Shown: positions 28,492-40,761 of the stretch, in pieces
Layout of the letters: each line of letters begins with the position of its first letter
Position numbering within the stretch: position 1 is the stretch's first letter
NCBI GenBank assembly: GCA_903919985.1
Contig: CAIXKG010000154.1
Location: forward strand, 1-41,945
From: an uncultured Opitutia bacterium
GTDB taxonomy: Bacteria > Verrucomicrobiota > Verrucomicrobiia > Opitutales > Opitutaceae
Direction: 5' to 3'
DNA length: 41,945 nucleotides
Notes under the pieces: model-generated
Database searches by the model: none
Seen by the model: only the letters and a program-made list of their open reading frames with translations
Told to the model about the DNA's origin: nothing
Position numbers and translations under genes: made by a program

Positions 28492-29688
28492 TCAGAGTTT
28501 CTTGACGGCGTACGCCATCGCGTCGGCGATCTTTTCGAGCTGTTCGTCCGTGTGCATGGCGGAGATCGCCGTGCGGATGAGATCTTTGCCGATGGGTACC
28601 GCCGGAGCGATCGACATCACGGTGAACACGCCTTTTTCGAGCAGTGCTTTCCAGAAGGGATAAACGCGTTCTTTCGAACCGAGCACGATCGGTGTCGCGG
28701 GGGTTTCACTGCCCCACGTGTCGAGACCGAGATTTTTAAGAATCGCGCGGTATTTTTTGGTATTGGCCCACAGGCGCTCGTGATGCTCGCGCTCGGTCTG
28801 CATCAGCTCGAGCGAGGCCTGGGCGCAGGCCGCCTGACTGGGGCTGAGAGCGGCGCTGAAGACCGTCTGCTTCGAATTCGTGCGGAGATAATCGATCGCT
28901 TCTTTCGAGGCGGCGACAAAACCGCCGGTGCTGGCCAGCGATTTCGAAAGGCTGCCGCAGATCACGTCGACTTTGTCGTTGAGTCCAAAGTGGTCGACCG
29001 TGCCCCGGCCCTGCCGGCCGAGCACGCCGAAACCATGGGCATCGTCGAGGACGGTAAAGCAGCCGTGCTCCTCGGCAATTTCCGTCAACTCCGGCAGGCG
29101 CGCGATGTGACCTTCCATCGAATAAACGCCCTCGATGACGAGAAGTTTCGGGGCGTCATTGCTGGCGGCGGCGGCGACGTCGCGAAAATCGTCGGGGCTG
29201 TTGTGGGAAAAACGCTCAACCGTGGCGCGCGAAAGTTGAATCCCTTCCCACAGGCAGGAGTGGATGTTCTTGTCGGCGAAGATCACGTCGCCCTTTTGGG
29301 CAAAGGCCGCGACGCTCGAGAGACACGAGAGATATCCGGCAGAGTGGACGTGACAGGCTTCTCGGCCGAGGAAGTTTGCGAGTTTTTCCTCCAGCTCGAG
29401 ATGGTAGGCGCGGGAACCGTTGGAGATGCGGGCTCCGGTCGGGCTAGTGCCCCATTTGAGGAGGGCCGCTCGGCCGGCTTCGATTACCTTGGGGTGGAAG
29501 GAAAGTCCCAAGTAGTCGTTGCTCGAAAGCATGATAAGGTCGCGACCGTGGAGGCGCACGGTCGTACCTTTCTGTGACTCCATGGCGTGGTAGAACGGAT
29601 CATACTTCAGGCGCATCTTCGTCGCGTAGTCGTCGCGGAAGCGGTTGAGGACGGCCTTTTTGTTTTTGGTAAAGAATGAAAGCGCCAT
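28492..29688 (-). CDS. Alpha-oxoamine synthase (KBL/BioF/serine palmitoyltransferase family)
   Basis: This 398-residue, PLP-dependent enzyme condenses an amino acid with an acyl-CoA, releasing CO2. Motifs are SSNDYLGL (55-62), TGARISNGSRAYHLELE, LDDAHGFGVLGRQGRGT (214-230) with PLP-contacting D216 and H218, and GSLSKSLASTGGF (245-257) with the Schiff-base lysine K249. The N-terminal helix with YDPFYHAMESQKG is closer to serine palmitoyltransferase-like and KBL-like proteins than to BioF. No tdh, bio or other sphingolipid gene is adjacent. It could make a long-chain base for a sphingolipid or an aminoacyl ketone that modifies a glycan. It is flanked by two related GT4 genes. The start follows TTTCCCCCACGTC. 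Confidence 0.85.
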   Translation of the reverse strand: MALSFFTKNKKAVLNRFRDDYATKMRLKYDPFYHAMESQKGTTVRLHGRDLIMLSSNDYLGLSFHPKVIEAGRAALLKWGTSPTGARISNGSRAYHLELEEKLANFLGREACHVHSAGYLSCLSSVAAFAQKGDVIFADKNIHSCLWEGIQLSRATVERFSHNSPDDFRDVAAAASNDAPKLLVIEGVYSMEGHIARLPELTEIAEEHGCFTVLDDAHGFGVLGRQGRGTVDHFGLNDKVDVICGSLSKSLASTGGFVAASKEAIDYLRTNSKQTVFSAALSPSQAACAQASLELMQTEREHHERLWANTKKYRAILKNLGLDTWGSETPATPIVLGSKERVYPFWKALLEKGVFTVMSIAPAVPIGKDLIRTAISAMHTDEQLEKIADAMAYAVKKL

Positions 29689-31046: not shown

Positions 31047-32618
31047 TCAGAAAGTCAGGCGCGGATCGTAAATCGCGAAGGCCAGCGCACGCGCGTCGGC
31101 GTTCGGGCTTTCGCGCGTGCCAGGCGTGTCGCTCGAAAACTCAAGACGAGTCCGGCCGGCACCGAGCGCGAGGGGAAATGTCACGCGTACGGCTTTGTCG
31201 CCCACGGGCCCACGCCAGAGTTCTACGCCCGCTTGGCGGACCACCACGGTGCGCGGGGTGAGGCTGCGCAGCGAAAATTCGAATTGCCCGGCGAGTGGCG
31301 TAAGCGGCCATGTTTCGAAGTTCAACTCCCCACGCCCTTCGCACCAGGACCAGACGTGGCGCAACGTGTGTTCGGCGCCGAACCAGCCGGCGTTGACGTG
31401 AACCAAGGTCGCGACGCCATGACTGCGCGCGGCAAAAATTTCGCGCGAGTCGTTGGGTACGTCGACAAACGTGAGCAAACCCGCTGTCACGCCGAGATTG
31501 CCGAGTATGAGCCAAGCGAGCGCAGCGCGGGTGCGAACGGCTACGACGTTGAAAGCCAGCGTGAGGGGAAGCAGCACTCGCGTCGCGGCGCCCGGGAATC
31601 CCTCCCATACGGCCGTGCCGAGCATAAGCATCAACGCGGTGTAGGCCGCGGCGATCCGCCACCAGGCATCGGCCGGGCGCCAACGGATCAGCACAAAACC
31701 TGCCTGCACCGTGAGCCCGATTACGGCGAGCAGGGTGGTCCACGCGAGCAGCGGATGCGTGGGATGCGCGACAGTACGGAGCACGTCAGTCCATTTTTCC
31801 ACGAGCCCGGCGACCGGGAGCGTGAAATTTCCCCAGCCGGCGTCGGCAGGCCCGACCCGCCACCGAACATAAATGAGCCAGCCGGCAAGCGGTGTGGCCG
31901 CGAGGATCAACGTCAGGAGATTCTTGCGGGAGAGCCACGGTCGGTCGAGCAGACCCACCACGCCCACGAAGGCCGTTTCGCGGGCGAGCGCGGCTGCGGC
32001 CAGCCAGCCGGAAGCGGAGCGCGGGCGCGATCGTTCAAGGGCCCACATCGCCGCCGCGAGCAGCGTGAGTGCGGGCAAATCCGTGAGCGCGTAACGTACA
32101 CTGCTCAGGGCGCCGGCGCTGAAAAGAACTCCGGCCCACGCGAGCACACCGCGAAAATCCGCGACGGCTAGAATCCGCCAGAGCAGTACGGCGGCCAGCA
32201 GCCACACGCCGGCGTTGAGCAAAGCGTAAACGTGGATGATGGCTCCCGGCTGACCGGCTCCGAGCAGCCAAGCCACGGCCGGCGGTAGGATGCGGCGCGC
32301 ACGATATGAAAAATTGTCCATCGCCGGCCTTAGCTCCGCGGCATCGAGCAGCGGATGGTGAGCGATCTGCGCGTAGTACAGACCATCGTAGCCGCCGGTG
32401 TCGCGGTAGACGTAAACCGGATGCTCGCGGAAGGCGGCGATTTTTAAATCGTCGTTCGTGGCGTCGAGTTGGATGAGTGCAGTGAAGCCATAGACCGGGT
32501 GCCAGAAGCGGGCCACCGCGACTAGGAAAAACCCAGCGAGCGCGAGCGCCACGAGCAGCGGAGCCCAGCGTCGCGCGGAGAGCGTCGAGTTCCGGCTCAA
32601 GTCGAAGGAGGGGCCCAC
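31047..32618 (-). CDS. GT-C-like membrane protein with C-terminal beta-rich module
   Basis: This 523-residue protein has about ten membrane segments, then a soluble tail of about 120 residues. The first outside loop has GGYDGLYYAQIAHHPL, with an Asp that fits the catalytic or metal site of GT-C enzymes using polyprenyl-phosphate sugars. Later come TDLPALTLLAAAMWALE, LARETAFVGVVGLLDRPWLS and GTAVWEGFPGAATRVLLPL. The tail reads LTPRTVVVRQAGVELWRGPVG, then LGAGRTRLEFSSDTPG, and ends DARALAFAIYDPRL; it resembles tails of the 34127 and 38563 products. GTG 32618 or TTG 32600 are candidate starts; the latter overlaps the upstream stop as TTGA. The protein is a paralogue of the 34127-35782 product. 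Confidence 0.8.
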   Translation of the reverse strand: MGPSFDLSRNSTLSARRWAPLLVALALAGFFLVAVARFWHPVYGFTALIQLDATNDDLKIAAFREHPVYVYRDTGGYDGLYYAQIAHHPLLDAAELRPAMDNFSYRARRILPPAVAWLLGAGQPGAIIHVYALLNAGVWLLAAVLLWRILAVADFRGVLAWAGVLFSAGALSSVRYALTDLPALTLLAAAMWALERSRPRSASGWLAAAALARETAFVGVVGLLDRPWLSRKNLLTLILAATPLAGWLIYVRWRVGPADAGWGNFTLPVAGLVEKWTDVLRTVAHPTHPLLAWTTLLAVIGLTVQAGFVLIRWRPADAWWRIAAAYTALMLMLGTAVWEGFPGAATRVLLPLTLAFNVVAVRTRAALAWLILGNLGVTAGLLTFVDVPNDSREIFAARSHGVATLVHVNAGWFGAEHTLRHVWSWCEGRGELNFETWPLTPLAGQFEFSLRSLTPRTVVVRQAGVELWRGPVGDKAVRVTFPLALGAGRTRLEFSSDTPGTRESPNADARALAFAIYDPRLTF

Positions 32619-34117
32619 TTCCAGACGGTTGCATCGCCCACCGAGCCCACCTGGGTCCAGCGACCGGGCATGTGCACCTCGGTCGCGTCCTTGACTTCGA
32701 AGGGCCAGAGCACGGCGTAGAGCGGCCGGCCGGTGGCGAGGCTCGCTTGGGCGAGACGGGCGGATTGTTCGGGGCTGAGAATATCCCAGCGGACGAAAGT
32801 GAAATCGCTGTAGTAGACGAGTGCGCCGGAGCATTGCATGGCGGCAATGGTAGCATTTGCCGGCAGGTGATCGCTGGCCCACTTCACCGTTTTACGGTAT
32901 TTGGCCTCACCGCGGCCGATGGTGGAAGCGTCGAGGTGGAGGTTCCAGAACACGCCTTGAGCGATCACGACGGCGGCGAGGACGAGGGGGGAAGCGTGCA
33001 ACAGAAGCGGAGAAAAATTCCGGGCTGACGCTCGTTTTAACCACCAGCTGCGAATGATCCAAAGTCCGCCCACGATGCAGGCGGGAAACGCGGGGAGCAC
33101 GAAGCGAAGGTACCACCACGTTTCATGGGTATGGTAATAGCTCAGGTAGAAACCGAGTACGGCGGTGATCCAGAGTATGAGTAACCACGCGAACGGCTCG
33201 CGGCGTTTTGTCCATGGCAGGATCAACGCGAGCACGCCGACCGGGGTGAGGAGAACGGGCAGCCATTCCGCGTAGTTGCGCAGCGTAGCCGGGATGATTT
33301 TGAGGGAGAATAATCCGCCCGGACCGCCGTAGCCGGATTCAAGTGGGTGACCGTAAGCGTGCCAGTTGTAGAGGCATTGTAGGATGGCGCCGGGCAATCC
33401 GCCGAGGAGGAACAAGCACCAGCGGCGCCAGCTCAGCCCGAGGCCAACGGCGGCAGGGAGCAGGACGACGAGATGGCTCGGGCGCGTGAGCACACCTGCG
33501 GCCATGGCGAGACCGGCGAGACTGGCCCACGCGGTGTGTTGGCGGCTGCGCCAAGCGCCCACGACCGTCATGATCGTTAACACGGTGGCGGGCACGTCGC
33601 TCATGAGCTGAACGGCGAGGAACGTGTAGAGCGGACAGGCGGCCAGGATGAGCGTGCCGAACCATGACCAGCTCCACGGCAATCCGGCGCTGCGGCCGAG
33701 AACAGCGGTGAAGATTAGTCCCAGCACGGCGAACACGCCCATCGTGAAATGCGGCGCGGCGTCCCAGCCGGTGATTTGCGCGGTGGCGGCAATAGCAAGC
33801 GGCAGTCCGATGGGATAAGTCGGAGCCATGCGGTCGCTGCCGACCGGTCGGAAACCCAGCGGGATGAACACGAATGCATCGACCTGGGTCAGATCGAAAC
33901 CGGGAACGACGCGCTGGGGCATATGGGTCGTGGCTTGGGCCACGAGGCGGGCGTTGTTAAGATAGCCCGAGGAATCGGAGCCGCCGCCATAAGCGCCCAT
34001 GTTTAGAGCGAGGAAGACGAGGTAGAAAACAAAGCTCGCGAGCACGATGCCGGTGAGCCACCGCCGTGCTGCAACGGAAGAAGAGGGGGACGGAACGGGC
34101 GCGGGCGGTGAATCCAT
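32597..34117 (-). CDS. GT39-type membrane glycosyltransferase
   Basis: This 506-residue protein has about ten to twelve hydrophobic segments. It is of the dolichyl-phosphate-mannose-like/ArnT-like class (PMT_2), which moves a sugar from a polyprenyl-phosphate donor outside the cytoplasmic membrane. The first loop has GAYGGGSDSSGYLNNARLVAQ, with the Asp typical of this class; other landmarks are LGRSAGLPWSWSWFGTLILAACPLYTFLAVQLMSDVPATVLTIM and RPSHLVVLLPAAVGL. The C-terminal 100 residues are soluble (VKWASDHLPANATIAAMQCSGALVYYSDF). ATG 34117 (MDSPPAPVPSPSSS) is chosen; its start is only 9 bp from that of the divergent gene. It overlaps the downstream GT-C-like gene. Confidence 0.83.
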   Translation of the reverse strand: MDSPPAPVPSPSSSVAARRWLTGIVLASFVFYLVFLALNMGAYGGGSDSSGYLNNARLVAQATTHMPQRVVPGFDLTQVDAFVFIPLGFRPVGSDRMAPTYPIGLPLAIAATAQITGWDAAPHFTMGVFAVLGLIFTAVLGRSAGLPWSWSWFGTLILAACPLYTFLAVQLMSDVPATVLTIMTVVGAWRSRQHTAWASLAGLAMAAGVLTRPSHLVVLLPAAVGLGLSWRRWCLFLLGGLPGAILQCLYNWHAYGHPLESGYGGPGGLFSLKIIPATLRNYAEWLPVLLTPVGVLALILPWTKRREPFAWLLILWITAVLGFYLSYYHTHETWWYLRFVLPAFPACIVGGLWIIRSWWLKRASARNFSPLLLHASPLVLAAVVIAQGVFWNLHLDASTIGRGEAKYRKTVKWASDHLPANATIAAMQCSGALVYYSDFTFVRWDILSPEQSARLAQASLATGRPLYAVLWPFEVKDATEVHMPGRWTQVGSVGDATVWKWAPPST

Positions 34118-34126
34118 ACTTGCGTC

Positions 34127-35782
34127 GTGAAGGCTGAAACTCTGCCTTTTGGGCTTTTCGTGGCCAGACTGAAACCATTTTTTAAAACCTACGCGCCCAA
34201 GGCACTGAAGCCCGCGTATGCTGGCACCGTGGTGCTGTTCATTTGGCTCTGTGCGCAATTTTATCTGCCGGGTAAAGGGTTCACCTACCTGATCAAGTTT
34301 GGGGAAAAAGAGAGTGCGCGGTACGTGCCCGCGTTGAAGGCAATCAACCATTACGAGGAGGAGGACACGAACGGTTATGACGCGCAGTATTACGCGCAGA
34401 TCGCGATGCGGCCGTGGCTGAGCAATCCGGCGTTGCGGCGCGCGGTGGACAGCCTGCCGTATCGCGCGCGGCGGATTTTGTTTTGCTGGACGGCATACGG
34501 ACTCGCGTTGGGCGACCAGGCGGCGGCACTGCACATTTATGCGGTGCAGAACATCGCAGCCTGGCTGCTACTGGCGGCGGTGTTGTTGCACTGGTTTCCG
34601 CCGAAAAGCTGGGAGAATTTCTTTCGATGGTTCGGGGTGCTATTTTCTTTCGGGCTGTGTTTGAGTGTCCGCGGTTCGCTGGTGGATGGGCCGAGCTTGC
34701 TGCTGATCGCGATCGGCATGTGGCTGGCGGAGCGGGGACATCCCTGGTGGTCGGCCGGCGTGTTGGGCGTGTCGGGTCTGGGCAAGGAGACGAATGTGAT
34801 CGCGGGCGCGGTGTTTGCGCCGGGAAATTTTGGGGATGCGCGCGGGTGGGGCCGCGCCGTCCAGCGCGGTTTGGTCGTGGTGCTCCCGCTGGCAATATGG
34901 CTCTTGGTGTTGAAGCTCTGGCTCGGCAGCGGCGGCGATGTCGGGGCGCGGAATTTCGACTGGCCGTTTTTCGCCTACGCGCGGAAGTGGAAGGAAATCG
35001 CGGCGGTGTTTAAAACCGATGCCGCCGGTTCGATTGGCGTGTGGAGCGCCCTGATCATGATCGCGCTTTCGGCGCAGTGGTTGTTTTTCGTCCTGCGCCC
35101 GCGCTGGTCGAATCCCTGGTGGCGGGTGGGCGCGGGCTACGCCGCGCTGATGGTGGTGTTGGGCGATGCGGTGTGGGAAGGCTATCCTGGCGCGGCGGCA
35201 CGGGTACTCCTGCCGATGATCCTCGCGTTTAACATTCTCGTGCCGCGGGGCCGCGCCTGGTGGTTCCTTTTGCTGCTGGGTAATTCGACCATGTTTTTCT
35301 CGAGCGACACGCTCAAGGCGCCGGGTCGCGAAAGTTTTGTTCTGTCAGGTCCGCGAGTCCTGCGCATCGCCGAGCCCAGCGGGAAAATCTTGGAAGCGTA
35401 TTTCTCAGAAAATGAGTGGTTCGGCCCAGAGCGCTCGCGCTTTGATTTCTGGCGCTGGAGCCGTGGAGCGGCCGACGTGGTGCTGCGCAATCCCCATCCG
35501 TTTCCGCTCATTGTCGACGTGACCTTCGACCTGAAAAGCAACGACGAGCGCGAAGTCGTGGTGAAACAAGGCGATCACGTGCTTTGGACGGGCGATACGG
35601 TGCGCACGTTGCGCCGCGTGGAATTGCGCGCAATAAAACTAAACCCCGGTGAGACCGTGTGGAGATTTGAAACCGACAAACCCCCGCTGCTCCCGGTGAA
35701 CGGCGATTTGAGGAAGGTGGCGTTTAGTTTGCGAAATCTGGAACTGACGGCCGTGAAAAAGGCCGAAACGGAAACACCGTAG
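34127..35782 (+). CDS. GT-C-like membrane protein with C-terminal beta-rich module
   Basis: This 551-residue paralogue of the 31047-32618 product shares TNGYDAQYYAQIAMRP, YRARRIL, a VDGPSLLLIAIGMWLAERG-like segment and GDAVWEGYPGAAARVLLPMILAFN. About ten membrane segments are followed by a soluble tail of about 130 residues: NPHPFPLIVDVTFDLKSNDE, VVVKQGDHVLWTG, NPGETVWRFETD and GDLRKVAFSLRNLEL. GTG 34127 is the first possible start, only 9 bp from the divergent ATG at 34117; GTG 34160 is also possible. The bases at 34143-34168 match the right arm of the family B repeat, so the first codons may be repeat-derived and not translated. The substrate is unknown; transfer of a lipid-linked sugar is likely. 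Confidence 0.78.
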   Translation: MKAETLPFGLFVARLKPFFKTYAPKALKPAYAGTVVLFIWLCAQFYLPGKGFTYLIKFGEKESARYVPALKAINHYEEEDTNGYDAQYYAQIAMRPWLSNPALRRAVDSLPYRARRILFCWTAYGLALGDQAAALHIYAVQNIAAWLLLAAVLLHWFPPKSWENFFRWFGVLFSFGLCLSVRGSLVDGPSLLLIAIGMWLAERGHPWWSAGVLGVSGLGKETNVIAGAVFAPGNFGDARGWGRAVQRGLVVVLPLAIWLLVLKLWLGSGGDVGARNFDWPFFAYARKWKEIAAVFKTDAAGSIGVWSALIMIALSAQWLFFVLRPRWSNPWWRVGAGYAALMVVLGDAVWEGYPGAAARVLLPMILAFNILVPRGRAWWFLLLLGNSTMFFSSDTLKAPGRESFVLSGPRVLRIAEPSGKILEAYFSENEWFGPERSRFDFWRWSRGAADVVLRNPHPFPLIVDVTFDLKSNDEREVVVKQGDHVLWTGDTVRTLRRVELRAIKLNPGETVWRFETDKPPLLPVNGDLRKVAFSLRNLELTAVKKAETETP

Positions 35783-36004
35783 GCGCGTGGATTCACCTTT
35801 CTGGCTTTGAATGCAGGCGGGGTGCGCTCCCGCCGCTTGCGGGCGGCCGCGCTCCCAAAAAAAACGGGGTGTGGGCACCACGCCTCAATTTGAGACCGCG
35901 ATGGCGTCTTGGAGTGGTAAGGCGAAAGCGTAGCCGCTAACGACGTAGCGCTAGGCGTCCCTGCCTGCTTCCACTCAAAACAGCCACGGAAAACTCAAGC
36001 CCGT
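35783..36004. repeat. Convergent intergenic region with palindromes and a family C repeat
   Basis: The 222-bp gap between convergent genes has no gene that I can support. GCGGGGTGCGCTCCCGCCGC and CTTGCGGGCGGCCGCGCTCC are GC-rich foldable stretches (about 35819-35857), followed by eight A residues. Further on, GTAGCGCTAGGCGTCCCTGC (35945-35964) matches the end of the window near 41890; the 27-bp segments at 35942-35968 and 41887-41913 agree at 25 positions. Confidence 0.6.
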
Positions 36005-37654
36005 CTAAAATCCCGCGATAGCCTCGAGCCGCCGGCGATAACGCGCGCCGATGGCGGCGGGAGAATAATGCGTTTCCATTGTCGCCTTGGCCGCGGCACC
36101 GAGCCGGGCGGCAAGCGCGCGATCGCCGCACAAACGGCGCATGTGTTCAGCCGCGTGCATCAGGTCGGGCTCGGCCCACGTCGCCCCTTTCGCGTAAGGC
36201 CCATAGTTTTTATCGAGTGTCACGAGCGACGCGCGCACCGGACAGCCGTTGGTGGCATCGACAAATTCCGCCGTGCCGGACCAATCGGTCGAGATCACAG
36301 GTTTACCGAGAAACATGCACTCGGCCACGGCCAACCCAAAACCCTCCGACCGATGCAGCGAAACGAAGGCGTCGCACGCCGCTTCCAGCGCGTAGACGTC
36401 GGCGCGGGAAAGCGTCTCGGTAATGAGAATCGTCCCGGGTAAGTCGGCGACGGCGGTTTGCAGCGCGGCATACTCGCCGGGATTGGCGTCCACGTTTTGA
36501 ACTTTGAGGACGAGCGCGGCTTTCCCGGCGAGGCCGGACGCCCGGAAGGCGGCGAGGGCGCCGCGCGGATTTTTGCGTTCTGCGTAGGAGTTGAGATCGA
36601 ACAGGGAAAGAAAGAGAAACGGCTCTAGCGGAAGTTTGAAGCGCGCGCGCAGCTCGGCGGCGGTTGCAGTTGGCCGCTCGAAGCCGATGGCGTGGGGCAA
36701 AGTGAGCACGGGCAGGGGAGATTTCGCGGCGATGGCGTCGCGGGCGAAATTGCTCGGGCTCCACACTTCGTCGAAATAATCGAAGCTCGGCAGCCAGTCG
36801 TCGGGAAACTCCGGCAGCTCCCACGCGAAATAGGCGATGTTGTATTTGCCCGCGCGAAACGCGGGCCCGTGGTGATGATCGAGGTCGCGCGCGGCCGGCG
36901 GATCGACATGGACGACGTTAACATCGTGCGGATTTTCGGCGGTGAGTCGCGCGGCGTACGTCTGGTCGCCGAGACGATTTTTACAGTTAAGCTTGAGCGG
37001 CACCGCGGCGACGGGAATGCCCGCGGCGTCGGCGGCGCGCACCATGCAGCGCGCGGACTCGCCGAGGCCGAGATCGGCCGTGAGGAAACCGACAACGTTC
37101 ATGCCCAGTCGCGCGTGGCGGCGGGCAAACTCGGCGCGGAAAGGCGCGTGGCGGTGGGAAAAATCGTAGATGAGTTCGCCGGCGTCGGTCGCCAGCGAAG
37201 CGATGCGCAGCGCGCGGTTTTTGTTTTGCGCGCGAAACGATTGCAGCGGTCCCGAGCCGGTGATGCGGCCGAGCCAGGCTAGGGTGTTGGTGAGCGCCGT
37301 GCCGCCGAGTTGCAGCGTGAGGGTGAAGCCATCCGCCGGCGCCGTGGCGGGGAGAGTAATGGAAATTTCCCAGGGGCCGACCGCGGTCGAGGTGAGCGTC
37401 GCGACGGGGGCACCATTGAGCGTAACGGTGAGCGTCGGCGCAGATTTTTCGAGCGCGCCAGCGACCGGGTGCGGACGGAATTCGCCGCGGAGCACAAGGC
37501 GGCGGATGCCGTCGAGCGGGGGCAGATGGATGATGCCGGTGTCCCGGAGCCACGCGGAATCCGGAGCGAACTCGTCGAAGAAAAGTCCCGAGTAGTGAGT
37601 GACGCGCCGGTTGAAGGCGCCGCCGGCGGGGGGCGTGCGGGGGGCGGAACGCAT
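36005..37654 (-). CDS. GT4 glycosyltransferase with N-terminal beta-rich module
   Basis: This 549-residue protein joins a beta-rich N-terminal region (about 25-165) to a GT4 catalytic part (about 185-545). The first part reads LVLRGEFRPHP, TLTVTLNGAPVATL, WEISITLPATAPADGFTLTL and NTLAWLGRI. The second part begins GMNVVGFLTADLGLGESARCM and has VDPPAARDL, FDEVWSPSNFARDAI, FLFLSLFDLNSYAERKNP and the donor motif HRSEGFGLAVAECMFLGKPVI. The GLGESAR/FAWELPEFP pattern is known from GT4 proteins of surface-polysaccharide loci. ATG 37654 is used; its CAT shares two bases with a possible ATG (37653) of the divergent methyltransferase gene. The N-terminal module resembles the C-terminal tails of the nearby GT-C-like proteins. 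Confidence 0.82.
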   Translation of the reverse strand: MRSAPRTPPAGGAFNRRVTHYSGLFFDEFAPDSAWLRDTGIIHLPPLDGIRRLVLRGEFRPHPVAGALEKSAPTLTVTLNGAPVATLTSTAVGPWEISITLPATAPADGFTLTLQLGGTALTNTLAWLGRITGSGPLQSFRAQNKNRALRIASLATDAGELIYDFSHRHAPFRAEFARRHARLGMNVVGFLTADLGLGESARCMVRAADAAGIPVAAVPLKLNCKNRLGDQTYAARLTAENPHDVNVVHVDPPAARDLDHHHGPAFRAGKYNIAYFAWELPEFPDDWLPSFDYFDEVWSPSNFARDAIAAKSPLPVLTLPHAIGFERPTATAAELRARFKLPLEPFLFLSLFDLNSYAERKNPRGALAAFRASGLAGKAALVLKVQNVDANPGEYAALQTAVADLPGTILITETLSRADVYALEAACDAFVSLHRSEGFGLAVAECMFLGKPVISTDWSGTAEFVDATNGCPVRASLVTLDKNYGPYAKGATWAEPDLMHAAEHMRRLCGDRALAARLGAAAKATMETHYSPAAIGARYRRRLEAIAGF

Positions 37655-37727
37655 GAACGTGGACGAGCAGCGAAAGGCGCGGCGTTTGCCTTGGCAAAAC
37701 ATTCCGCAGCCGCTTCCCTCGGCGCAG

Positions 37728-38471
37728 ATGGAAGCCGACGAATACCGTAAGATGGCCGCCGTGGAGGACGCGATGTGGTATTACCGGGCGCTGCACGCAC
37801 ACGTCCACCGCCTGCTGGCCGCCACTTTGCCCGCAAAAGCGGCCGCGCAGATGCTCGATGCGGGTTGCGGCACGGGTGGCTTGATGAAGCGGCTCGCAAA
37901 ACTGTATCCCAGCTGGCGTTGGACCGGCCTCGATTTGGAAACGCGTGCCTGCGAACTCGCCCGCGAACGCACCAAGGGCGTGGAAATCGTCGAAGGCTCG
38001 GTCACGGCCCTGCCATGGGGGGACGCGAATTTCGACGCGGTGGTGTCGGCGGATGTCATCTATCATCTCGACGACGACGTGGCAGCGTTGCGGGAATTTT
38101 TTCGGGTGCTGAAGCCAGGTGGGATCGTGGTGATCAATGTGCCGGCATATCGCTGGCTGTGGTCGTATCACGACGTCGCCACGCAGGCGAAGCGGCGGTA
38201 CGATCGCGGCGAGCTGATGGCGAAATTGCGGGCGGCTGGATTTGGCGGGATCGAGGCGACGCATTGGAATGCGCTGCCGTTGCCGCTGGTAGTGGCGCGG
38301 CGAAAATTACTCCCTGCGCCCGCGGACGGGAGCGACGTTCGGCTTTATCCGGCACCGGTCGAAATCGGATTCAATGTCGCGATGGCGCTGGAGCGGGGCT
38401 GGCTGCGCGGCGTGGGCCGGCTCCCCTTTGGAAGTTCGCTCCTCGCCGTGGCCACCAAGCCGGGAAACTGA
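37728..38471 (+). CDS. Class I SAM-dependent methyltransferase
   Basis: This 247-residue methyltransferase has the SAM-binding motif I LDAGCGTGG (43-51), motif II acid in GLDLE (D69) and VSADVIYHLDDD, followed by FFRVLKPGGIVVINVPAYRWLWSYHD. The N-terminal EYRKMAAVEDAMWYYRALH is the usual family beginning, which supports ATG 37728. ATG 37653 (MNVDEQRKARRL) would add 25 residues and overlap the start of the divergent GT4 gene. The target could be a sugar, lipid or quinone-like acceptor; placement among glycosyltransferase genes favours a glycan or glycolipid. A family B repeat separates it from the following membrane protein gene. Confidence 0.85.
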   Translation: MEADEYRKMAAVEDAMWYYRALHAHVHRLLAATLPAKAAAQMLDAGCGTGGLMKRLAKLYPSWRWTGLDLETRACELARERTKGVEIVEGSVTALPWGDANFDAVVSADVIYHLDDDVAALREFFRVLKPGGIVVINVPAYRWLWSYHDVATQAKRRYDRGELMAKLRAAGFGGIEATHWNALPLPLVVARRKLLPAPADGSDVRLYPAPVEIGFNVAMALERGWLRGVGRLPFGSSLLAVATKPGN

Positions 38472-38545
38472 ATGGCCACAAAAGTACAAAAAGGGTGGAA
38501 CTTGGGGCGAATTTTTTGTGAGCCTTTGGGCTCTTTGTGGCCAAT
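38472..38545. repeat. Inverted repeat, family B, between methyltransferase and membrane protein genes
   Basis: ATGGCCACAAAAGTACAAAA (38472-38491) pairs with CTCTTTGTGGCCAAT (38531-38545) as imperfect inverted arms enclosing a G- and T-rich centre. The right arm CCTTTGGGCTCTTTGTGGCC (38523-38542) is close to the single arm at 34143-34168. The next start codon follows 18 bases later. It fills most of the 91-bp gap. Confidence 0.65.
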
Positions 38546-38562
38546 GCTGACTTTCGCCTAGC

Positions 38563-40761
38563 ATGTATTTCTACCTCGTCGCGTTTGGGCTGCTGTTGCA
38601 CGTGCTTTTCTGGGGCGCGGGCGTGGCGCTGCTCGCGATGCCGCGGCCGTGGGAAAAATTTTGGCCGGTGCTCGCCGCGCCAGCGGGGTTTGCGGTGCAG
38701 TCGCTCGCGGTCTGGATCGGCGCTTATGCGGGGCTCAAGGGAACGAATCAGTACGCGTGGGCCAGCGAGATCCTGCCCGTGGGCCTTCTCATCGCCGGAG
38801 TCTGGTGGAGCGGAAGCGCGCTGGCTTGGTGCGGTCTGAAAAAAATGCCGGCCGTTTGGCTGGCCACCGCGGTGTGCCTTGCCGTGTTGGTGCTGCCGCT
38901 GGCCCGGGCCTCGAAGGGCTTGACCACGGTTTCGCTGGGGAGCTGCGACGCGGCGGATTACGCGGCGGGAGCGCGGGTGTTGATGGAATTTGCACGCAGC
39001 GACCGCAGCGGATTCCTCGGCCTGACCGAGGTGGTGCAAGTGATGTCGGTGGATAATTTTTTCGATTTCTGGCTGCGGCTGAATCATTTCACGCCGTCAG
39101 CGTTGATCGCACTGAACGGCACGGTTCTGCACTGCGCGCCGCACGAGCTGACGGGGCTCATGACCATCGTCCTGTTGGCGACGTCGCTGCCGCTGGTTTT
39201 CTGGCTCGCGCGGGTGGTATGTGGGTACGGTGGCCGGGCGAGTTTCGTCATTGCGGTGGTCTACGGCCTGAGCCCGATCACGTGGTACGCGGTGTGGCAT
39301 GTGGCGATGGCGCAGTTGCTGGCGGCGCAGGCGGTTTTACTGATCACTTGGGCGGGAATCGCATTGTGGCATTCGCGGGAAAACCTGACCTGGCGATCCA
39401 TGGGTTATGGCGGCGTGCTGACGATCGGCTACGCCTTGGTGTTGGGAGGTTATAATTTCTTTTTAGTCCTATGCCTCGTGCCGGCGCTGGCGTACGCCGG
39501 TGGACAGGCGGCGTGGAGGGGTGAGTGGTTGCGGCTGGCGCGTTGGACGGTTGCGATGCTGGCGCCGCTCGTCGCCTGCGGCCTCGTTTTTTGGGAACGC
39601 GTGGCCGGACTGGCTGAACGCTTCGCGTTGTTTCAAACGTACGATTTCGGCTGGAGAATTCCCGCGCTGTCGCCGGAGGGCTGGCTGGGGATTGTCAGGA
39701 GCAGCGGACTGGCGCCCTTTCCGACACTCCCGCGGCTGGCTTTGGCGGCGGCGGCCATTGGGCTTCTCGCGGTGGCCCTGCTGCGGGCGGCAAAACAGCG
39801 GCGGCAAAGTGCGTGGGTTGTGGTGAGTCTGGCGGGTCCGGCGTTGGTGGGCTACGGCTATCTCAATCTGCGCGGCGTGCAGCTTGGCACGAATGCGAGC
39901 TACGACGCGTACAAGGTGCTCGCGGTGTTTTATCCCGGTGTGCTCGCGGCCCTTTTTTACTGGGTCACGCTCGCACGCAACGGTTGGAGCCGGACGTTAA
40001 CGATGGCGTTTGGCGGCGTGGTGGTAGCGATGAATTTGCACGCGGCATATCGCTTCGCGGAGCGGATGGAAAATCCGCCGTTGATCGTCAACCGTGAGCT
40101 GCTGCAGGTGCAACGCGCCGAGGCGATGCCGGAGGTGGCGTCCGTCAATCTTCTCGTGCCCGACATGTGGTCGCGGCTTTGGGCCAATCAATTTCTCCTT
40201 AGCAAACCGAACTATTTCCGCACGCACACCTATGAGGGCCGGCTCAACACGGAGCTGCGCGGGGCTTGGGATTTAAACGGTGGGCTCGTGCAGTTGCGTC
40301 TGCCCGAAGGCGGGTCGTTTCCACTCAATGCGCATTTCGGCCTGGTCCGCACGGGCAGCCCTTATTTTCTGCGCGTCGAGTTGGGCGCGGGCTGGCAGGA
40401 TCTGGAACGCCTGCCGCGCGGGGCCACGCGCTGGAGCTGGACGAAGGGTGACGCGACGCTGCGTTTGGAAAATCCGCAGATCCGGCCGTTGCGCATCGTC
40501 TGGCATTTCAACGCCCGCAGCGAGGTGGACCGTGATTTGCAGCTGTGGCTGAACGGTAAACGCGTGCGCACGGTGCAGATTGGCCGTGAGCAAAAGATTG
40601 TGCGCGTGCCGGAGATGGTCATCCCTCCAGGAGTAAACGTGGTGGAATTGAAGTCGGCGGTGCCACCCACGTACTTGCCGGGCGATGCCCGGCCGCTCGG
40701 CTTCGCCGCTTACGGTATTGAGATCGAAGTGAAGGCGGACTTGGCCCCGGTCGAGGATTGA
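38563..40761 (+). CDS. Large membrane protein, probably GT-C-like, with C-terminal beta-rich module
   Basis: This 732-residue protein has about twelve hydrophobic segments in the first 510 residues. A soluble tail of about 220 residues follows. The tail reads RWSWTKGDATLRLENPQIRPLRIVWHFNARSE (split across a short turn), then LQLWLNGKRVRTVQIG, IPPGVNVVELKS, and ends GDARPLGFAAYGIEIEV. This matches the tails of the other two GT-C-like proteins in order and spacing. No short catalytic motif as clear as GYDxxYYAQ was found; SCDAADYAAGARVLMEF, with two Asp residues after the third hydrophobic segment, takes that place. I infer a transferase of a lipid-linked sugar, but a flippase or polymerase role cannot be excluded. 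ATG 38563 follows GACTTTCGCCTAGC. Confidence 0.7.
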   Translation: MYFYLVAFGLLLHVLFWGAGVALLAMPRPWEKFWPVLAAPAGFAVQSLAVWIGAYAGLKGTNQYAWASEILPVGLLIAGVWWSGSALAWCGLKKMPAVWLATAVCLAVLVLPLARASKGLTTVSLGSCDAADYAAGARVLMEFARSDRSGFLGLTEVVQVMSVDNFFDFWLRLNHFTPSALIALNGTVLHCAPHELTGLMTIVLLATSLPLVFWLARVVCGYGGRASFVIAVVYGLSPITWYAVWHVAMAQLLAAQAVLLITWAGIALWHSRENLTWRSMGYGGVLTIGYALVLGGYNFFLVLCLVPALAYAGGQAAWRGEWLRLARWTVAMLAPLVACGLVFWERVAGLAERFALFQTYDFGWRIPALSPEGWLGIVRSSGLAPFPTLPRLALAAAAIGLLAVALLRAAKQRRQSAWVVVSLAGPALVGYGYLNLRGVQLGTNASYDAYKVLAVFYPGVLAALFYWVTLARNGWSRTLTMAFGGVVVAMNLHAAYRFAERMENPPLIVNRELLQVQRAEAMPEVASVNLLVPDMWSRLWANQFLLSKPNYFRTHTYEGRLNTELRGAWDLNGGLVQLRLPEGGSFPLNAHFGLVRTGSPYFLRVELGAGWQDLERLPRGATRWSWTKGDATLRLENPQIRPLRIVWHFNARSEVDRDLQLWLNGKRVRTVQIGREQKIVRVPEMVIPPGVNVVELKSAVPPTYLPGDARPLGFAAYGIEIEVKADLAPVED

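Follow-up and report, generated by a model that had tools for sequence, protein, structure and literature searches.

The right third of the stretch analysed here, the 41,945-nucleotide contig CAIXKG010000154.1 of an uncultured Opitutia bacterium (hereafter the window), is a glycan locus. Three of its multi-span membrane proteins, which we term A, B and C, end in a soluble segment of about 120 residues, and these three C-terminal segments, referred to as tails, are one domain family. Two further proteins of the locus are relevant: E, a membrane protein, and D, a GT4 glycosyltransferase with a beta-rich domain at its N-terminus. An earlier note on this DNA had proposed that one small beta-sandwich was joined to unrelated catalytic folds at either end, namely to the C-termini of A, B and C and to the N-terminus of D. 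That proposal stands for the membrane parts of A/B and C, but not for D.

Table 1. Features of the glycan locus in the window. "Quartet" denotes the candidate Glu-Trp-Asp-Arg site; strands are in brackets.
Feature	Position	Description
A	31047..32618 (-)	multi-span membrane protein; putatively GT-C-like
Tail module of A	31053..31403 (-)	~residues 406-522; quartet E416, W423, D508, R510 (hand-numbered)
E	32597..34129 (-)	membrane protein; without tail module in this window
B	34127..35782 (+)	paralogue of A; membrane protein
Tail module of B	35408..35758 (+)	~residues 428-544; quartet E435, W442, D527, R529
D	36005..37654 (-)	GT4 glycosyltransferase, PF00534
N-terminal domain of D	37160..37597 (-)	~residues 20-165; jelly roll with inserted helical stretch; family separate from tail
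C	38563..40761 (+)	multi-span membrane protein; putatively GT-C-like
Tail module of C	40375..40734 (+)	~residues 605-724; quartet E615, W624, D708, R710; also W611, W626, G690
GT4 genes	25843, 27274, 29812	
Serine-palmitoyltransferase-like gene	28492-29688 (-)	best PDB match serine palmitoyltransferase, E 6e-89

The tails of A, B and C have in common the order GW..E......WRW..G.A.L...NP ... R ... G ... PG ... P ... D.R.L.F. In a blastp comparison of eight window proteins, a tiny search space, C 522-721 aligns with B 362-540 (E 1.6e-7) and C 605-717 with A 406-517 (E 9e-6). A five-round jackhmmer search of 3,899 open reading frames (ORFs) from 100 relatives' loci and the window, seeded with the C tail, recovers the tails of C, B and A with domain E-values of 4e-53, 1.7e-36 and 1.6e-29, respectively; runs seeded with the A and B tails likewise recover all three, and 127 ORFs were found altogether. 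Comparison of the A and C tails by HH profile alignment gives a probability of 100 (E 1e-48). This mutual recovery bears out the common motif order that had been claimed for the three soluble tails, while the limits of the segments were refined to those in Table 1.

All three proteins carry the tail, as claimed, but they do not represent three membrane types. A and B are paralogues end to end (34% identity, E 2e-67, blastp), and their tails are therefore not independent instances; the window thus has two tail-bearing membrane types. A third type, K2, was not found in the window and is represented by L064:11000-13213 and 14 more ORFs (L-numbers denote loci from relatives' genomes). The HH probabilities between membrane parts are 1.6-1.7% for A/B against C, 0.2-0.6% for A/B against K2 and 4.3% for C against K2, so that, as judged from sequence, one module is found on membrane parts that are not detectably related, two of them in the window. 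E scores 84.6% against A and 75.2% against K2, and A and K2 are perhaps each distantly related to it. The frame of E shares 22 bases (32597-32618) with the start of A, as if the two were translated together.

NF046093 (AZOBR_p60025 family cell surface glycopolymer formation protein) covers approximately residues 20-255 of A and B, at 118.6 bits (E 2e-34) and 138.6 bits (E 2e-40), respectively, which lies under its curated cut-off of 150 bits, and the match stops short of the tail. E matches NF047440 (LA_3751/LA_3752 family putative glycosyltransferase) below cut-off, with 32.6 of 200 bits. For C, sequence searches of Pfam, NCBIfam and the PDB gave nothing at E <= 1, and A and B retrieved only one unrelated chain from the PDB (E 0.67). 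Within the A/B family a G-Y-D motif is invariant, and A has a stretch of about 90 residues after its first predicted span. We infer that the membrane parts of A, B and C are GT-C-like and have glycosyltransferase activity.

The AlphaFold model of the C tail is all beta (pLDDT 94.6, pTM 0.85), and in this model the tail has, at the level of fold, the beta-sandwich (jelly roll) of a carbohydrate-binding module (CBM). Foldseek against the PDB returned 67 matches at E <= 1e-3, and the best 50 of these, with query TM-scores of 0.33-0.51, are mostly CBM35, CBM6, CBM36 or CBM61 modules or enzymes bearing them. The tail also reaches HH probabilities of up to 77% with CBM6 domains from genomes of the same family. 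We infer from this neighbourhood that the tail binds carbohydrate. It differs from CBM6, CBM35 and CBM36 in lying below Pfam detection: A, B and C match no Pfam family at E <= 1, and none of 68 tail members matches the CBM_6 model at E <= 0.1. In the same scan, one of the 68 matches the model of DUF7024 (PF22895) with E 0.0027. A DUF7024-seeded profile of 11 rows aligns with the tail at an HH probability of 96% (P 5e-9) over 113-114 columns, and DUF7024 is also C-terminal in its seed protein (L209), although the Pfam model finds no match in A, B or C at E <= 1. Sequence searches of the PDB with the tail gave two phage coat proteins (E 0.02 and 0.63) and one carbohydrate-binding module (E 0.22), which we take as chance. 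No description of the tail module was found in the literature searched, outside whose scope lay other wording and subscription journals, and none was found on DUF7024 or AZOBR_p60025. The tail is a new domain family in an arrangement of known kind.

Residue conservation was counted in 189 tails filtered at 80% identity, using the numbering of C. Two tryptophans are nearly invariant, W626 being kept in 188 of the 188 rows with a letter at that position and W611 in 182 of 187. Four further residues, E615, W624, D708 and R710, form a quartet that is present in all three window copies. It is conserved in both tail-bearing types of the window, with E615, W624, D708 and R710 kept in 59, 58, 53 and 59 of 60 A/B-type rows and in 66, 65, 63 and 67 of 67 C-type rows, respectively. 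Among the 186 rows with letters at all four positions, the quartet is complete in 129, partial in 37 and wholly absent in 20, and 19 of these 20 are of the K2 type. K2 rows with letters at all four (36) divide into 19 without the quartet, 8 with all of it and 9 with one or two of its residues, while W611 and W626 are each kept in 37 of 37. Such joint loss, with both tryptophans staying, suggests a functional site rather than core packing, and the quartet is accordingly put forward as a candidate ligand site, read from the alignment. In L203, L205 and L206, which include glycoside hydrolase-like and lyase-like proteins, Glu, Asp and Arg are kept and Trp is replaced.

To describe how widely the tail is spread, we counted the genomes in which it is matched. 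C or its tail was matched in 86 of 150 genomes drawn from the family, and the tail profile finds a match in at least 46 of the 337 phylum genomes searched, of which 23 belong to that family; the profile counts are lower bounds because at most 12 candidates were scored per genome. Hits beyond the family have weak E-values, from 3e-13 to 8e-4. The window's own genome, a draft that is 79% complete, has three copies, those of A, B and C. Carriers have 99 distinct N-terminal parts, comprising 42 of the A/B type, 40 of the C type, 15 of the K2 type and two singletons, one a membrane protein and the other a soluble GT4 of L095. Short forms with lipobox-like N-termini, recognised by eye, carry one module in L081 and two in L099, and these N-termini would place both outside the cytoplasm. 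L201 has three modules in tandem. Remote versions of the tail lie at the end of two enzyme-like proteins, one GH42-like (L203) and one pectate-lyase-like (L206); others are found in L202 and L207, on proteins that match no Pfam family at E <= 0.01.

On a tree of 176 tails, a short alignment whose bootstrap had not settled, the four carrier groups require 21 label changes against a shuffled mean of 91. This clustering indicates that tails mostly descend with their carriers, with some exchanges. One such exchange can be followed in L117, L124 and L160 (52.8-59.5% mutual identity), where the reading frame of an E-type membrane protein runs on into an A-type tail; all three genomes are metagenome-assembled, and these fusions are three of 57 E-type ORFs. 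Over 127-135 residues the fused tails share 36-39% identity with the A tail of the window, and they group together inside the A tails (100/93, within groups of 99/93 and 100/95), which suggests one fusion event. In the 22 kb of sequence covered, only a B-type ORF was found beside the fusion. When the whole genomes were searched with A, two of them turned out to carry a full-length A-type frame at another place (47% and 49% identity, the latter with one internal stop), and the third showed a B-like frame alone (35%). The tail thus reached E by copying or transfer, so the module is able to travel as a unit, and in at least two genomes the E-fused copy is not what remains of an A since lost.

We next consider the N-terminal domain of D. 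D matches Glycos_transf_1 above cut-off (40.5 bits against 26.4, Pfam), and a simple hydropathy count found no transmembrane segment in it. The AlphaFold model of residues 1-174 (pLDDT 89.1) is a beta-sandwich with helices inserted at 120-148. Its Foldseek result against the PDB is weaker than that of the tail, with one match at E <= 1e-3, and its neighbours are mixed: a binary-toxin pore component, the cellulose-synthase subunit BcsB, CBMs and PA14 domains. A porphyran-binding CBM, 8xmz, is among the structural matches of both domains. By sequence, the D domain retrieved ribosomal S6 and others from the PDB at E 0.04-1, taken as chance. The four motifs by which the N-terminus of D had been fitted to the order of the tails are indeed present, but one of them, LAWLGRI, which had been equated with the closing D.R.L.F strand, sits in a predicted helix (model residues 120-132), and the family is separate at an inclusion E of 1e-4, where iterative searches with tail and D share 0 ORFs.

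We consider it unlikely that the tail and the D domain are one homologous module placed at either end of different enzymes. Profile cross-detection, which had been set in advance as the test of this idea, has an intermediate outcome. It gives tail-D scores of 28.3 and 29.6 (HH), and these are reached by none of 234 decoy families (those with at least 20 rows out of 420 seeds from the same loci, probably with few beta-sandwiches among them). The scores thus stand above ordinary families, but not above other jelly rolls: a score of at least 28 is obtained when the tail is compared with 15 of 24 CBM6 profiles (best 33.6), 27 of 29 GH2 N-terminal profiles (best 31.9) and 0 of 17 F5/F8 profiles, although these 70 profiles, from 90 seeds, sample few families repeatedly, so that the 24, 29 and 17 are not independent. 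Six of 400 cross-class comparisons scored 119-134, were taken as seeds on the same domain and were left unused. With 60 scrambled D profiles, 3 of 120 comparisons reach the tail-D score. From the side of D the picture is more favourable to homology, as its top control score (26.0, with CBM6) is under its tail scores. Larger profiles give HH probabilities of 36-41% (P 3e-4) over 74-85 columns, rising to 80-82% once AlphaFold secondary structure is added, whereas smaller profiles gave 3-8% and global HH alignment 0.1-0.5%. The global alignment pairs W..G..L in both, and the N-G hairpin LQLWLNGKRV with LTVTLNGAPV, and among the elements listed the strands come in the same order. Relaxing the inclusion E to 1e-2 brings 117 of 146 D-type ORFs into the tail search, with a shifted register in the rows that could be checked; the register is likewise shifted where the tail profile has borderline HMMER matches (E 0.03-0.11) to relatives of D. 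DUF7024, so near to the tail, is not near D (HH below 1%). The similarity between tail and D domain is that of two jelly rolls; a remote common origin could still underlie it. In its strong form, with the D domain as the same module, the proposal was rejected, as the jelly rolls of CBM6 and GH2 are at least as close to the tail as the D domain is.

The position of the D domain in relatives bears on its location in the cell. Among 95 distinct relatives' domains, it lies between GT2 and GT4 in 5, after GT2 alone in 1 and before GT4 without a recognised GT2 in 84, with 5 ORFs cut by the locus end; these proportions are biased because the loci were chosen for hits. Because it stands between two soluble-type glycosyltransferases in some relatives, and D itself is without a transmembrane segment, the domain is most likely cytoplasmic. 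Tail and D domain would then most likely lie on opposite sides of the membrane. The D domain was found in at least 18 of 288 phylum genomes, all of the same family, with at most 12 candidates scored per genome. The GT2-jelly roll-GT4 fusions (861-870 residues) are L080:7901-10504 and ORFs of L224, L226, L228 and L170; L062:5916-7295 is a GT2-jelly roll protein without GT4, and the window's D is without the GT2 part. No literature on a GT2-jelly roll-GT4 fusion was found.

Besides A, E, B, D and C and the genes in Table 1, the glycan locus holds a methyltransferase gene and an NAD-dependent epimerase/dehydratase-like gene. The order GT4-GT4-serine-palmitoyltransferase-like-GT4-(A)-E-B-D-(K2)-methyltransferase-C-epimerase is seen again, complete or partial, in different genera. 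Most of the named relatives matched by C bear the label Opitutaceae, Opitutae, Opitutia or Opitutus, and some only Verrucomicrobia. In the 40 longer loci (L061-L100, chosen for hits), D is present in 22, and 21 of these, counted by eye, also have an A/B-type ORF. All NCBIfam models score below cut-off for the serine-palmitoyltransferase-like gene, which several relatives likewise have next to these GT4 genes; assembly of the glycan may take place on or near a sphingolipid. A promoter scan found 0 sites against 1.6 expected, and terminator-like sites numbered 18 against 12.0 (standard deviation 3.9) by chance; neither was used as evidence. No literature on Opitutaceae exopolysaccharide glycosyltransferases was found.

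We think it probable, with moderate confidence, that the tail is an extracytoplasmic CBM-like module that holds the acceptor glycan on GT-C-like enzymes, with the quartet in its site, and that the jelly roll of D is a different, cytoplasmic domain. On this reading the tail, as the C-terminal part of the enzyme, would face outwards from the cytoplasmic membrane and would hold a lipid-linked or growing glycan beside the membrane active site, as suggested by analogy with the mycobacterial arabinosyltransferases EmbC and EmbB. Contact with the glycan would most likely be made through a site that includes Glu, Trp, Asp and Arg of the quartet (in C, E615, W624, D708 and R710). Several observations weigh against this reading. 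Residues 411-484 of the soluble GT4 L095:5752-7260 match the tail profile (E 4e-8), and this copy of the tail may be cytoplasmic. The GT-C assignment of A, B and C comes without a Pfam or PDB sequence match, and a hydropathy count gives 4-12 segments in them and no clear positive-inside signal. Query TM-scores of at most 0.51 among the matches listed mean that no close structural relative of the tail was found, and those matches include lambda-type phage tail-fibre domains and one viral haemagglutinin; a jelly roll can serve packing or dimerisation instead. Quartet losses fall mainly in one related group and hence represent few events, three of the eight quartet-keeping K2 rows come from one protein (L201), and the candidate residues are placed together by alignment rather than in three dimensions.

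If packing or dimerisation were its role, the tail would link the membrane enzymes of the locus to one another, or to a lipoprotein copy, and would have no glycan site. Such a role agrees with the finding that A, B and C of a single locus all bear the module, as do a further membrane type in many relatives and the short lipoprotein-like proteins. We nevertheless regard it as rather unlikely, given that the fold class and the copies on glycoside hydrolase-like and lyase-like proteins favour carbohydrate binding, and that Glu, Asp and Arg are kept on L203, L205 and L206, where a partner glycosyltransferase is not expected. The strong clustering of carrier types on the tree (21 label changes against 91) would also fit a stabilising appendage that is retained by descent and has no specific ligand. 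This seems very improbable to us, since a charged and aromatic quartet is conserved across carriers and jointly lost in one group, and three relatives have an A-type tail on a membrane protein of another kind. A bolder extension of the acceptor-holding role would make the tail a common address label for an entire assembly line. The successive membrane glycosyltransferases of the locus, joined in some relatives by free lipoprotein copies, would all use the quartet to recognise one growing surface glycan, and the GT2/GT4 jelly roll would read that glycan, in lipid-linked form, on the inner face before flipping; we judge this decidedly doubtful.

Acceptor holding by the tail finds its closest parallel in EmbC and EmbB, GT-C enzymes in which a multi-span membrane enzyme is likewise reported to be followed by a C-terminal jelly roll. 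In the EmbC report (PMC3044687), the C-terminal domain has a CBM-like subdomain whose neighbours include CBM6 and CBM36, as for the tail here, and a Trp change in that subdomain lowered acceptor binding and product synthesis. The EmbB report (PMC7341804) describes its C-terminal CBM as periplasmic and as a proposed acceptor guide. By this analogy, the tail most likely holds an acceptor glycan outside the membrane. The systems differ in that the C-terminal domain of EmbC, as described in its report, has two subdomains, whereas the tail is one domain of about 120 residues, and in that the PDB chains retrieved by sequence were, as given above, none for C at E <= 1 and an unrelated one for A and B. 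The tail provides a testable accessory domain for several unannotated membrane families that recur in a conserved Opitutaceae glycan locus, with the four quartet residues as predicted targets for mutation, and the CBM6 and GH2 controls illustrate how easily a shared fold is mistaken for a shared module. An acceptor-holding role would extend the EmbC-like principle, in which a lectin-like tail holds the acceptor, from mycobacteria to Verrucomicrobiota.

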